Assembly: GCA_018303205.1 (NCBI GenBank)
Contig: JAGVYP010000031.1
Location: forward strand, 1-35,448
Direction of reading: 5' to 3'
DNA from: Candidatus Woesearchaeota archaeon
GTDB taxonomy: Archaea; Nanobdellota; Nanobdellia; Woesearchaeales; JAGWAF01
Length of the DNA stretch: 35,448 bases
Under the pieces are notes generated by a model. It was not told where the DNA came from and searched no databases. It saw only the letters and a list, made by a program, of their open reading frames with translations. The translations under genes and the position numbers were made by a program. Below are positions 1 through 33,182 of this stretch, in pieces. The stretch's first letter is position 1. Each line of letters begins with the position of its first letter.

Positions 1-1642
1 TAATCTTTTCTTTGCTTATTTGAGAGCAAGAAAAGGAAAAAGTACAAGGCAGTATGTTCTTGATTTTGAAAAAAATTTAAATCAAAGTCTGATGCAATTA
101 CAACAAGAATTGATTACGCAAATCTACAAGCCAAAACCGCTAGAAACTTTTATCTTGCGTGATCCTAAAACTAGAAAGATCAGCAAATCAGATTTTAGGG
201 ATAGGGTTGTGCATCATGCACTCTGCGCCATCATCGAGCCATTATTTGATAAAAGGTTCATCTATGATTCGTATGCTAACAGAATAGGTAAAGGAACGCT
301 CAAAGCTATAGAGCGTTTTGATGAATTTAAGAGAAAAGTTTCAAAAAATAATACGAGAACTTGCTATGTTTTGAAGGCTGATGTCAAGCATTACTTTGAT
401 ACCGTGGATCATAAAATTCTTATAAATATGATCAGTAAAAAAGTGAATGATGAAAATATAATATGGTTGATACAATGTATTCTTGATAATCACAAAACTA
501 ATGATAAGTGTATAGGCATGCCTTTGGGTAATCTTACTTCACAATTCTTTGCAAATATTTACCTTAATGAGCTTGACCAATTTGTTAAACATCAATTGAA
601 AGCAGAATACTATCTCAGATATGTTGATGATTTTGTCATCCTGCATCATGAAAAAAGTCTTTTGAATATCTATAAGCAAAAAATAGATGAATTTCTAAAA
701 AACACTTTAAGATTAGAACTTCATCCTGACAAATCAAAAATTATCAACCTTCATCATGGCATTAGTTTTCTTGGTTTCAGAATTTTTTATCATCATAAGA
801 TTATACGAAAAAAGAACAGAAGAAAATTAGAATCAGCGCTGGATATTATGAAAAAAGAATACAAACAAAACATGATTGATAGAGAGAAAATTGTAGAACG
901 CTTCGAAGGATGGATCAACTACCTAAGCCATGCAAACACTTTCAAATACAGAAGACATCTCTTAAGGCTTTTCAATCAAAACTTCCCATTGAACGCCCCC
1001 CCCTGTACACAGAACACTACGACAACAAGGGGAATACAGTCTGCTAAAAAACATGAAAATTTCATCACCAAACTAGAAACAAACAATTCTCCATTCAGCA
1101 GACAAAAAACACTACAACTCTACAAAAAAGGATTAAAAATCAATGAAATAGCAAAAAGAAGAATCATCAAAGAATCAACAGTATGGGAACACCTCATCAA
1201 AAGCATAGAATACAACCAACTATCAGTCTGGAAAATTCTGCCTAAAGAAAAAATACAAAAAATACAAGAAAAAATATACAGTGCGGAAGACAAACTCAAA
1301 GACATCAAAACAAGAATAAAAGACAATACCATAACCTACAATGAAATCGCTTGCGTACTCGCACATTTCAAAAGCAAAACAAGAACAAAAAATATTATCC
1401 ATCACCTCAACGGGTACAAAAAAAACCATTGCAAAAGAAAATGCTATTTTAATCCAGAACAAAGAAAGCAATGCGAACAAAAATTCAATCAACTCCTAAC
1501 ACAAAATCCTGCCTTAGCAATGCAAAGAAAAGAATTCCTAGACTTCTTTAATAATCAACTTATTATTTGCATACTTCCAGAAAAAGAAAAAAGAGCATAT
1601 CTGAGCTGGAAAGAGTTCAGAAATAATATCAAAAAAAGTTAA
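1..1642 (+). CDS. Reverse transcriptase, DGR-like, with C-terminal HTH_40-like domain; 5' end truncated by the window
   Basis: Frame is open upstream of the listed start (NLFFAYLRARKGKSTRQYVLDFE). RT motifs: frDRVVHHAL, LKADVKHYFDTVDH, GMPLGNLTSQFFANIYLNELDQFVK, YYLRYVDDF, ISFLGFR. The GNLTSQ motif is DGR-type rather than the QGxxxSP of group II introns. C-term 'TLQLYKKGLKINEIAKRRIIKESTVWEHL' resembles RecQ/YpbB HTH_40. Confidence 0.9.
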   Translation, partial: NLFFAYLRARKGKSTRQYVLDFEKNLNQSLMQLQQELITQIYKPKPLETFILRDPKTRKISKSDFRDRVVHHALCAIIEPLFDKRFIYDSYANRIGKGTLKAIERFDEFKRKVSKNNTRTCYVLKADVKHYFDTVDHKILINMISKKVNDENIIWLIQCILDNHKTNDKCIGMPLGNLTSQFFANIYLNELDQFVKHQLKAEYYLRYVDDFVILHHEKSLLNIYKQKIDEFLKNTLRLELHPDKSKIINLHHGISFLGFRIFYHHKIIRKKNRRKLESALDIMKKEYKQNMIDREKIVERFEGWINYLSHANTFKYRRHLLRLFNQNFPLNAPPCTQNTTTTRGIQSAKKHENFITKLETNNSPFSRQKTLQLYKKGLKINEIAKRRIIKESTVWEHLIKSIEYNQLSVWKILPKEKIQKIQEKIYSAEDKLKDIKTRIKDNTITYNEIACVLAHFKSKTRTKNIIHHLNGYKKNHCKRKCYFNPEQRKQCEQKFNQLLTQNPALAMQRKEFLDFFNNQLIICILPEKEKRAYLSWKEFRNNIKKS

Positions 1643-3939: not shown

Positions 3940-3993
3940 AGCTGTACTTATTTTCTAAGTTTTTTTGTCTATTTTAGATTTTTGTTTTGAAAT

Positions 3994-4135
3994 GTCAAAA
4001 ACCACCAATCAGAGATTGGTGGCATGTGGCGACATGCCACTATCAAGAGGTTTTTGAGCATGCTCAAAAATTTTTTACTATTGAGAGTCCATTGGCTTCC
4101 AGCCACTAGTCAGAGACTAGTGGAAAATTTTTGAC
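3994..4135. repeat. Hairpin-rich intergenic element with terminal inverted repeats, copy 1
   Basis: Ends GTCAAAAA...TTTTTGAC; hairpins CCACCAATC-AGA-GATTGGTGG, GTGGCATGT-GGCG-ACATGCCAC, palindrome TTTTTGAGCATGCTCAAAAA, CCACTAGTC-AGA-GACTAGTGG. Second copy at 22025-22224. Confidence 0.85.
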
Positions 4136-4163
4136 ATTTTTATGTTTTTTAGTTTGTTGGTGG

Positions 4164-21901: not shown

Positions 21902-22024
21902 CTACTATAAAAAAAGAAGAGAAAAATAAAAAGGTAAAATAAACATAAAAAATTTTGAAGAGGATAACAAAAAAGAAAAAATTTGTCTAAAGAATAGTTT
22001 TGGATGTTCAGATCAGTTTCTTTT

Positions 22025-22224
22025 GTCAAAAACCACCAATCATAGATTGATGGCATGTCGCGACATGCCACTATCAAAAGTGGTTCATCAAAAATCGGTA
22101 AGATTTTTGAGTGTGCTCAAAAATGCATTGCATTTTTGACATTTGAGCATGCTCAAAAATTTTTCACTGTGTATAGTCCATTGGCTTCCTGCTACTAGTC
22201 AGAGACTAGTGGAAAATTTTTGAC
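22025..22224. repeat. Hairpin-rich TIR element, copy 2 (expanded centre)
   Basis: GTCAAAAACCACCAATCATAGATTGATGG...ACTAGTCAGAGACTAGTGGAAAATTTTTGAC, with additional TTTTTGAG..GCTCAAAAA units. Confidence 0.85.
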
Positions 22225-22839
22225 ATTTTCAAGCCAGGTTTTAATCTGTGAATACATAAAGTCATACCCTGCCTTATTAGGATGCACACCATCTTCTAAA
22301 AATAAGGTATACTTTCGCTTATGCATTTTCTTAAACATGTCTAAAAATAAAACTTTTTCTTTGGAACAGCATTCTTTGACGATCTTATTGAAAAATGCAA
22401 CTCTTTTATTCGTGAAAGAAGTTTCTTCATAAGGTAGTGTTCTTGTTTCGTCAACAGGAGGAAGACCTATACACCCTAATTGAGCAGGGTAACTTTTCGC
22501 CTTTTTGAGAAGTGTTCTCATATTTTTTCTAAAAGTTTCTTCTTTCATTCTTGGATTTTTCTGTTCTGGCATGCCGTCCCATTTACAATCATTACTTCCC
22601 ATAGCGATAAGAATGATATACTGATCTGAAGGTCTTTTTAGTTTGATCCTTGCTTTGCATTCAATATCAAAACGTTGAAGAAGGTCTTGGGAAGTATTTC
22701 CAGGAATGCCGAGATTATATACTGCATGATATTTATCTTTTGCTTCAAAAAATTCTTTAAGCCTACCACACCATCCATAAGAAGGAGTTTCTCCTCTTCC
22801 AAAAGTAATGCTATCTCCAAAGCAGAGGATTCCAAACAT
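22195..22839 (-). CDS. SGNH/GDSL hydrolase
   Basis: ILCFGDSITFGRGE (block I), GIPGNTSQD, AMGSNDCKWDG, DGVHPNKAGYDF (block V). Confidence 0.9.
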   Translation of the reverse strand: MFGILCFGDSITFGRGETPSYGWCGRLKEFFEAKDKYHAVYNLGIPGNTSQDLLQRFDIECKARIKLKRPSDQYIILIAMGSNDCKWDGMPEQKNPRMKEETFRKNMRTLLKKAKSYPAQLGCIGLPPVDETRTLPYEETSFTNKRVAFFNKIVKECCSKEKVLFLDMFKKMHKRKYTLFLEDGVHPNKAGYDFMYSQIKTWLENVKNFPLVSD

Positions 22840-30535: not shown

Positions 30536-31082
30536 TTGTGATGGTACTGTGGAAAAAGCGAGAGGGGCTGTTTCTATCACTTCAGCAAGTCCGCAGATGT
30601 TAAAAGATGTACAGCTTTTATTATTACGGTTCTCATGCCCAAGTATTCTCCAGAAGGATACCCTTTATATCTCAGGCATAGCTGCACGCGAGTTTGAAAA
30701 AAATATTGGATTTGGTATGCAGGAGAAAAGAATAAAATCAGAAAGATTAACAGAAAAAGTGCAAGGAAGCCAAGTCATTGATACTATTCCTTTATCAAAC
30801 GAGAAATTAATTAAGGTAAGAAAGATACCTCAGGCATCTATTGATCATCATTATTACAAATATGAGAAGGGAATCTTAACTCCAACTGTTGATACGGTTT
30901 TAAAATTACAACAAAGATTTAAAGACCTTCAATTAGAAACGCATTGGTTTGGGAAATTAACTACAGGAGATCTTACATTTGTTGAAGTTATTTCTTTAGA
31001 GCAGGACTATGAATCTATCGTCTATGATTTTTCTGTTCCGGATCACAAAAATTTTATTGCTGAGGGTATGGTCATTCATAAT
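29576..31082 (+). other. Intein-coding insert in aEF-2 (1507 nt, not a multiple of 3)
   Basis: Starts Cys (TGT 29576), ends NFIAEGMVIHN (AAT 31080-31082) followed by Thr; two LAGLIDADG-type motifs in different frames. Confidence 0.9.
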
Positions 31083-33182
31083 ACGGCTTTCACAGACAAT
31101 CTCATGGCTGCTGCTGGTCAGATGGCTTCAAAATATGCAGGTAATTTGGATCAAGGAATGACCACTTGGCAACATAAGGATGAACAAGAACGTTTAATGA
31201 CGGTTGATGCTGCAAATGTTTCCATGGTGCATGAGTATAAAGATAATGAGTATCTTATTAATTTGATTGACACTCCTGGCCACATTGATTTTGGCGGAAA
31301 TGTAACCAGAGCAATGAGAGCTATTGATGGAACTATTGTGCTTGTTTGTGCTAGTGAAGGGATCATGCCTCAGACAGAAACCGTGTTAAAGCAGGCATTG
31401 CGAGAAAGAGTTAAACCCATTCTGTTCATTAACAAAGTAGATCGATTAATCAAAGAAATGAAGTTGCCTCCAGAAAAAATTCAGGAACGTTTTCTTAAAA
31501 CGATTAATGCTTTTAATAAATTGATTGAAAGAATTGCAGAGCCTGAGTATAAAGAAAAGTGGAAAGTGGATATTATGGCAGGTTCTGTAGCGTTTGGTTC
31601 TGCTCGCGATAACTGGGCATTGTCATTTCCTTTTATGCAGAAGAAAGGTGTCAAGTTTAATGATATTATGAAAATTTATGAGATGGATGAAGAGACAAGG
31701 AAAAAGTGGGTTTGGGAGAATGCTGCTTTATTTGAGGTTATTCTTGATATGGTTATTACGCATCATCCTACTCCTTTGGAAGCGCAGAAGTATCGTATTC
31801 CTAAAATCTGGCGGGGTGAGTTAGAAAGCGAATTGGGGCAAAGCTTGTTGAATTGTGATAGAAATGGAAAACTTGCGTTTGTGATTACCAGAGTGGTCAT
31901 TGATCCTCGTTCTGGAAAAGAGCTTTCTGCAGGAAGATTATTTTCAGGAACGATTCAGCAAGGTCAGGAAGTCTATTTGAACTTGAATAAGCAACGACAG
32001 CGCATTCAACAAGTGTACATTTACAATGGGATTAAACCTGATTCTCTGGAGTCCTTGCCTGCGGGAAATGTACTTGCTATTTCTGGGGTTATTGGAAATG
32101 CAGGAGAAACCATTACCTTAGAACCTGAGCAGCCTTTTGAAGAGTTAAGACATATTTTTGAGCCTGTGATTACCAAAGCAGTGAAGCCTGCAAAAATTCA
32201 GGATTTGCCCAAAGTTGTGGAAGTACTCCAAAAAGTGGGGAAAGAAGATCCTTCTATTAAAATTGAAATTAATGATGAGACCAAAGAGATTCTGATGAGT
32301 GGGATGGGAGAATTGCATTTGGAAATTGTTGAAAATAGGATTAAGACAGAAAAAGGAGTTGAGATCATTACGTCTGCTCCTATTGTGGTGTATCGTGAAT
32401 CGATTACAAAAAAGTCTATAGAAGTGGAAGGAAAATCTCCTAATAAACATAACAAGTATTATTTTGTTGTCGAGCCTGTTCCTGAACAACTCAAGCAAGC
32501 AATGAAGGATGACATGATTCCTGAAGGAAGAGTGAAAAAGAAAAATATAGAATTGCGGAAGGCATTGATGACAGCAGGAATGGATAGTGATGATGCTGAG
32601 AAAGTCAAAGATATTTTTGAAGGTAATATTTTTATTGATAGAACAAGAGGACAAGTGCACATGATTGAGGTTATTGAGATGATCCTTGACATGTTTGAAG
32701 ACGTGATGAAACATGGCCCTCTTGCAAGAGAACCGTGTATTAATGTAATCGTTACTCTTACGGATATGAAATTGCACGAAGACGCTATTCATAGAGGACC
32801 TGCGCAGACCTATCCTGCTATTCGTGAAGGTATTCGTGGAGCAATGATGACCGGAGCTCCGGTTATTTATGAACCGTTGCAAGTTATTTTGATAGAAGCA
32901 CCTTCTGATTTCATGGGAACCTTATCTAAGCTCGCTGCTGCAAAACGCGGACAACTGTTAGATATTATTACTGAAGAAGAAGGAGAAACAACGTTAAAAG
33001 TAAAAATGCCAGTCAATGAAATGATTGGTTGGGCTTCTGATTTGCGCTCTGCAACCAATGGAAGAGGAACCTCTTCTTTAATGGATCAAGCATTTGAAAA
33101 GCTTCCTTCTGAGTTACAGCCTAAGATTAGAGATCAAATTGTCAAAAGAAAAGGCTTAACAGAAGCACAGTTAGGAGCGTAA
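30549..33182 (+). CDS. fusA: C-terminal part of intein + aEF-2 C-extein
   Basis: Frame open from 30492 (VITAQFLRAYFDCDGTVEKARG); VIHN|TAFTDNLMAAAG; EF-2 motifs DTPGHIDFGGNVTRAMRAIDG, NKVDRLIKE, MGELHLEI. Confidence 0.9.
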   Translation: MEKARGAVSITSASPQMLKDVQLLLLRFSCPSILQKDTLYISGIAAREFEKNIGFGMQEKRIKSERLTEKVQGSQVIDTIPLSNEKLIKVRKIPQASIDHHYYKYEKGILTPTVDTVLKLQQRFKDLQLETHWFGKLTTGDLTFVEVISLEQDYESIVYDFSVPDHKNFIAEGMVIHNTAFTDNLMAAAGQMASKYAGNLDQGMTTWQHKDEQERLMTVDAANVSMVHEYKDNEYLINLIDTPGHIDFGGNVTRAMRAIDGTIVLVCASEGIMPQTETVLKQALRERVKPILFINKVDRLIKEMKLPPEKIQERFLKTINAFNKLIERIAEPEYKEKWKVDIMAGSVAFGSARDNWALSFPFMQKKGVKFNDIMKIYEMDEETRKKWVWENAALFEVILDMVITHHPTPLEAQKYRIPKIWRGELESELGQSLLNCDRNGKLAFVITRVVIDPRSGKELSAGRLFSGTIQQGQEVYLNLNKQRQRIQQVYIYNGIKPDSLESLPAGNVLAISGVIGNAGETITLEPEQPFEELRHIFEPVITKAVKPAKIQDLPKVVEVLQKVGKEDPSIKIEINDETKEILMSGMGELHLEIVENRIKTEKGVEIITSAPIVVYRESITKKSIEVEGKSPNKHNKYYFVVEPVPEQLKQAMKDDMIPEGRVKKKNIELRKALMTAGMDSDDAEKVKDIFEGNIFIDRTRGQVHMIEVIEMILDMFEDVMKHGPLAREPCINVIVTLTDMKLHEDAIHRGPAQTYPAIREGIRGAMMTGAPVIYEPLQVILIEAPSDFMGTLSKLAAAKRGQLLDIITEEEGETTLKVKMPVNEMIGWASDLRSATNGRGTSSLMDQAFEKLPSELQPKIRDQIVKRKGLTEAQLGA

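Follow-up and report, generated by a model that had tools for sequence, protein, structure and literature searches.

The 144-bp hairpin-rich unit near the start of the analyzed stretch of 35,448 nucleotides (the window), from a Candidatus Woesearchaeota archaeon, is best explained as a non-autonomous element built of two hairpins, of REPIN/BIME type, most likely moved as single-stranded DNA by a Y1 (HUH) transposase of the IS200/IS605 TnpA type acting in trans, a reading to which we assign a probability of about 70%. It is preferred because the hairpin, the guide at the hairpin foot, the target at one end and the absence of duplication match the IS200/IS605 mode, in which the enzyme binds a hairpin, a guide tetranucleotide lies at the hairpin foot and the target flanks the left end (PMC6006769). 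By its working the element is an IS200/IS605-REP system, and by membership it is REPIN-like, without the GTAG or CGTC tag or an adjacent RAYT. The features of the element and of a second copy in the window are listed in Table 1.

Table 1. Features of the double-hairpin element in the window
Feature	Position	Strand	Basis or remark
Element copy 1, complete, 144 bp	3993..4136	-	homology
Hairpin module A: outer stem TCAAAAACC (3995-4003) with GGTTTTTGA (4049-4057)	3995..4057	.	covarying stem
Inner hairpin CCACCAATC-AGA-GATTGGTGG	4002..4022	.	sequence
Inner hairpin GTGGCATGT-GGCG-ACATGCCAC	4019..4040	.	4-nt overlap with the 4002..4022 hairpin
Palindromic linker GCATGC between modules A and B	4058..4063	.	
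Hairpin module B: outer stem TCAAAAATTTT (4064-4074) with AAAATTTTTGA (4124-4134)	4064..4134	.	covarying stem
Inner hairpin CCACTAGTC-AGA-GACTAGTGG, adjacent to the element end bordering the target motif	4103..4123	.	
Proposed guide: minus-strand TTTT immediately 5' of the hairpin foot	4124..4127	-	guide-target correlation
Target motif, minus-strand TAAAAA, directly 5' of copy 1	4137..4142	-	
Element copy 2, same family, 202 bp, bearing a nested insertion	22024..22225	-	homology
Nested 56-bp mini double-hairpin CATCAAAAATCGGTAAGATTTTTGAGTGTGCTCAAAAATGCATTGCATTTTTGACA in copy 2	22086..22141	.	

A first-pass annotation had placed a hairpin-studded element at 3994-4135 (142 bp). The hairpins, ends and coordinates that it gave are found in the sequence, and comparison with homologs moves each end by one base, setting the unit as TGTC...GACA. 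The termini GTCAAAAA/TTTTTGAC, the matching subterminal hairpins with AGA triloops, the internal hairpin with the GGCG loop and the palindrome TTTTTGAGCATGCTCAAAAA (4051-4070) are all present as it described, and bases 4019-4022 (GTGG) do belong to the arms of both hairpin 1 and hairpin 2. Hairpin 2 (4019-4040) shows no conservation in the other genomes aligned. What look like terminal inverted repeats (TGTCAAAAA/TTTTTGACA) belong to two hairpins abutting at GCATGC, whose outer arms they form; this linker can pair through its CA and TG with the TG and CA at the extremities of the element. The minus strand is proposed as the active one, on which copy 1 reads 5'-TAAAAA^TGTCAAAAATTTT...TTTTTGACA-3'.

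Homologs define the architecture of the family. A BLAST search gave matches at E<=0.001 in 15 of 60 genomes of the order, and a core pattern with two mismatches allowed was found in 36 of 118 genomes of the order, compared with none for the reversed control pattern; named assemblies of Woesearchaeota, Pacearchaeota, Nanoarchaeota and Aenigmatarchaeota also carry homologs. The minimal form, of about 54 bp (53-58), consists of two perfect hairpins, TGTCAAAAACC-AAA-GGTTTTTGA-GCATGC-TCAGAAATCC-TTT-GGATTTCTGACA, and larger copies keep both outer stems with extra hairpins inside. Compensatory changes are seen in the outer stems, such as TCAAAAACC/GGTTTTTGA against TCAAGAACC/GGTTCTTGA, and TCAGAAATT/AATTTCTGA. 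Watson-Crick pairs outnumber all others by 254 to 32 in stem A and by 302 to 28 in stem B, and 10 of the 21 outer-stem positions show at least two Watson-Crick pair types. The CA/TG of the linker co-vary with the outermost dinucleotides of the element (TG..CA, CG..CG, CA..TG), and the TGTC tag is present in nearly all copies. The few non-canonical stem cells are evenly split between G.T (9) and A.C (12), and there is therefore no sign of one strand folding as RNA. In a short copy, L118 (G002:C40), a deletion between repeated CCACC hairpin arms has apparently joined one module's left end to the right end of a different module. A minimal copy also occurs in LBZW01000015.1, in an assembly labelled Candidatus Nomurabacteria (a CPR bacterium), reflecting either transfer or mis-binning. 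Viral carriage was rejected, as the core pattern had no match in IMG/VR.

The host assembly (1.42 Mb, 74 contigs, 85% complete) contains at least 23 copies on both strands, of which 11 are full length with 88-95% identity to copy 1, in agreement with the proposal of the first-pass annotation that this is a multi-copy, REP-like mobile family and well above the two copies that, together with the lack of a target-site signature, would have spoken against it; a signature of this kind is present and is described below. The copy number and the 15 genomes with matches also speak against a chance arrangement of hairpins. The copies are dispersed rather than positional, because they lie in both orientations and in all gene contexts, between tandem, convergent and divergent genes. 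The 56-bp insert of copy 2 sits within the central T run without duplication; it is a scaled-down double hairpin built like the element (hairpin, GTGTGC, hairpin), and two other host copies contain the same insert. The loop of hairpin 1 holds another insert in two further host copies, and the right half differs in four, which have GCACGC as linker and AGCG at the end. At two loci the element end provides the stop codon of the preceding gene: a glpX FBPase gene (G000:C56 near 26937; L047 2038-2169) and a PEP-utiliser-like gene (G000:C66 near 34760; L046).

Mobility is seen in a pair of DUF424 orthologs from the same genus. The gene of G112 is split by a 162-bp element copy, with stop codons following, and that of G054, with flanks 82% identical, has the empty site. 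Alignment of the two shows a clean insertion at CTGATT^TTTAY with no duplication and no loss, and G112 has near-identical element copies at different places. Four further genic copies, in relatives rather than in the window, are in frame and stop-free: they add 18 residues to gatA (MSEIQRISEHAQKPLVFD), 18 to a gatB/gatE-like gene, 48 to a TrxR-like (thioredoxin-reductase-like) gene and 49 to a radical-SAM-like gene (named by eye). The gatA, gatB/gatE-like and TrxR-like inserts coincide with gaps in alignments to solved homologs. Target-site duplication was found neither in the filled/empty DUF424 pair nor in the four joined reading frames.

The sites of 123 insertions, drawn from 37 genomes, were compared in minus-strand orientation, 5'-flank^TGTCAGAAA...TTTTTGACA^. 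The last six nucleotides of the 5' flank form a motif, TWRAWA^, with T at -6 (75%), W, R, A at -3 (93%), W and A at -1 (98%), and the 3' flank of the same insertions has no motif. This one-sided signature is matched at five or more of the six positions in 107 of the 123 insertions; at control positions within these flanks the rate is 11.7%, a difference whose p-value is only indicative since the consensus was derived from the data on which it was tested. A sequence resembling the motif, TTGACA^, forms the element's own 3' end. Next to the foot of the first hairpin, on its 5' side, lies the guide, for which 70 copies have TTTT and 17 have TATA; TTTT elements follow AAA, with A at -2 in 67 of 70, and TATA elements follow ATA, with T at -2 in 16 of 17. 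Counted by genome, the guide-target relation is 14/14 versus 0/7 (p=9e-6), a correlation that rests on two main guide classes, so that subfamily descent contributes to it. Descent of two subfamilies could yield part of the correlation if the flank belonged to the element; the one empty DUF424 site already has the motif, indicating that there the motif was in the target. Both guide kinds coexist in three genomes.

These features can be arranged into a scheme for transposition. The element consists of two palindromes, each with its tag (TGTC-hairpin ... hairpin-GACA), that have opposite orientations and are linked by GCATGC. A Y1 enzyme would bind to the subterminal hairpin of the active strand, and base pairing by the tetranucleotide next to the hairpin foot on its 5' side would then select the target, AAAA in the case of TTTT and AATA in that of TATA. 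The element would be joined precisely 3' of the target motif with no target duplication, its 3' end TTGACA serving as the equivalent cleavage site. We infer that such an enzyme, working through a single-stranded intermediate, may currently be active in the host.

Other explanations fit parts of these data. The small size, the many copies and the GTCAAAAA/TTTTTGAC repeats would suit a classical MITE, here a derivative of a DDE insertion sequence that has lost internal parts and kept TGTCAAAAA as its terminal inverted repeats; a MITE was among the possibilities named in the first-pass annotation. That reading does not survive the comparison, given that the repeats are outer arms of two hairpins, that neither the DUF424 pair nor the four joined reading frames show a target-site duplication and that the conserved motif is confined to one flank; nor was a parent IS with these ends present at 80 named loci, and we regard a MITE as very improbable. 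A unit maintained for a function in 3' untranslated regions, as a structured RNA or transcription terminator, might be suspected from the many copies downstream of genes and from T-runs that could end archaeal transcripts. Copies occur, however, in either orientation and in every context, among them the gaps between divergent genes and the interior of coding sequences, the wobble mismatches favor neither strand, and no Rfam match reached gathering score. The dispersed, nested pattern rules out this function as the main explanation, and we give it hardly any credence.

Mitochondrial double-hairpin elements of fungi consist of two adjacent hairpins and show nested insertions. An element of this type, spread by replication or template switching with no dedicated transposase, would account for the similar two-hairpin architecture, for hairpin pairs nested in hairpin pairs and for several element-rich genomes in which no transposase was found. 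The sharp one-sided target and the guide-dependent choice of target nevertheless argue for a sequence-specific enzyme and make this origin unlikely. The DPANN element differs further in its prokaryotic host.

The candidate enzyme was sought in the window, the host and related genomes. The first-pass annotation had noted no transposase in the window, and none was present among the window genes scanned. Two other genes of the window may be recorded in their own right. A 540-residue reverse transcriptase (20-1642, plus strand) matches RVT_1, falls below the group II intron maturase cut-off and has a C-terminal HTH_40 domain. The elongation-factor-2-like gene at 30549-33182 (plus strand) probably bears an intein, with its N-terminal part upstream, because the ORF begins with LAGLIDADG and intein-splicing matches. 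Y1_Tnp genes were absent from the host genome at its 85% completeness and from the element-rich genomes G002 and G054 (94-96% complete). Across 118 genomes, Y1 genes occur in 17 of 36 element-bearing versus 22 of 82 other genomes (p=0.036), a weak association; in 60 genomes p was 0.76. No complete element adjoins the Y1 loci of relatives, canonical ones included, and no autonomous long element bounded by both modules was found at the named loci. A TnpB/Cas12f-like partner scored above cut-off in G010 only and not in the element-rich genomes.

A divergent Y1 family of 143-159 residues in the same order is a lead to the cognate enzyme. Its genes are bounded by element-like hairpins (CCACCGGTCAGAGACCGGTGG, CCACTGGTGTTTCACCGGTGG), and the double-hairpin elements may derive from the ends of this IS (G017:C37, G042:C82, G063:C89), a tentative identification that we would sooner expect to fail than to hold. 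Hairpins of the form CCACYRRTC-NNN-GAYYRGTGG occur at the divergent loci and are absent at canonical Y1 loci, where the one listed match is a duplicate divergent locus. An exact 22-bp match, CCACCAGTCAAAGACTGGATGG, which includes an unpaired base, links the G017 IS end with G054 elements, the right ends read TTTGACA or TTTTACA, and a relic lies in G001, a member of the window genome's own family. Against this assignment, co-occurrence of the family with the element is not significant (p=0.13), the left flanks, judged by eye, lack the TWRAWA motif, and the family is absent from the host genome. The loci at G042:C82:5842-6282, G017:C155 and G063:C89 have conserved left and right ends of their own, and decayed copies are seen in G001, G040, G052, G055, G080 and G094.

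Comparison with known systems places the element closest to REPINs and BIMEs, the paired REPs mobilized by RAYT (TnpA_REP), with which it shares short tagged palindromes in inverted pairs, dispersal, extragenic preference and non-autonomy. It differs in having a TGTC tag and a GCATGC linker instead of a GTAG or CGTC tag, and its copies have no adjacent RAYT, whereas the single-copy cognate RAYT of REPINs is flanked by the same REPs. In a survey of 172 archaeal genomes, Y1 proteins were of the IS200 subclass only, with no REP-associated ones (PMC6006769). CGTC-tagged REPs and Rickettsia palindromic elements (RPEs; PMC3733652) likewise form head-head dimers, lie in some cases in frame within genes and have no dedicated transposase known; they differ in tag, sequence and domain of life, and the guide-target correlation is a feature of the DPANN element. 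With IS200/IS605 and its non-autonomous derivatives the element shares subterminal hairpins, duplication-free insertion, a short one-sided target, the foot guide and a matching motif at the other end. It contains no internal transposase or TnpB, reaches a minimum of 54 bp, and shows a strong near-symmetry, with two hairpins abutting at a palindromic linker, that is unlike the standard IS200/IS605 form. REP dimers and in-frame RPEs have been reported in bacteria (PMC3733652, PMC10969869), and no description of such repeats in DPANN was found in the literature searched.

A wider reading, which we hold tentatively and at somewhat short of even odds, is that DPANN archaea have a REP-like system of their own, in which a new Y1 branch would act in trans on double-hairpin elements guided by four nucleotides, and these elements would have entered genes for basic proteins as in-frame peptides. 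If true, this would be a REP-like system in DPANN, archaea with small genomes, and two guides with two targets, sometimes in one cell, would provide a natural experiment on guide-directed target choice. The in-frame GatA and GatB/GatE-like inserts have a parallel in Rickettsia palindromic elements, which suggests that in this second lineage, likewise marked by genome reduction, core proteins gain peptides from such elements.
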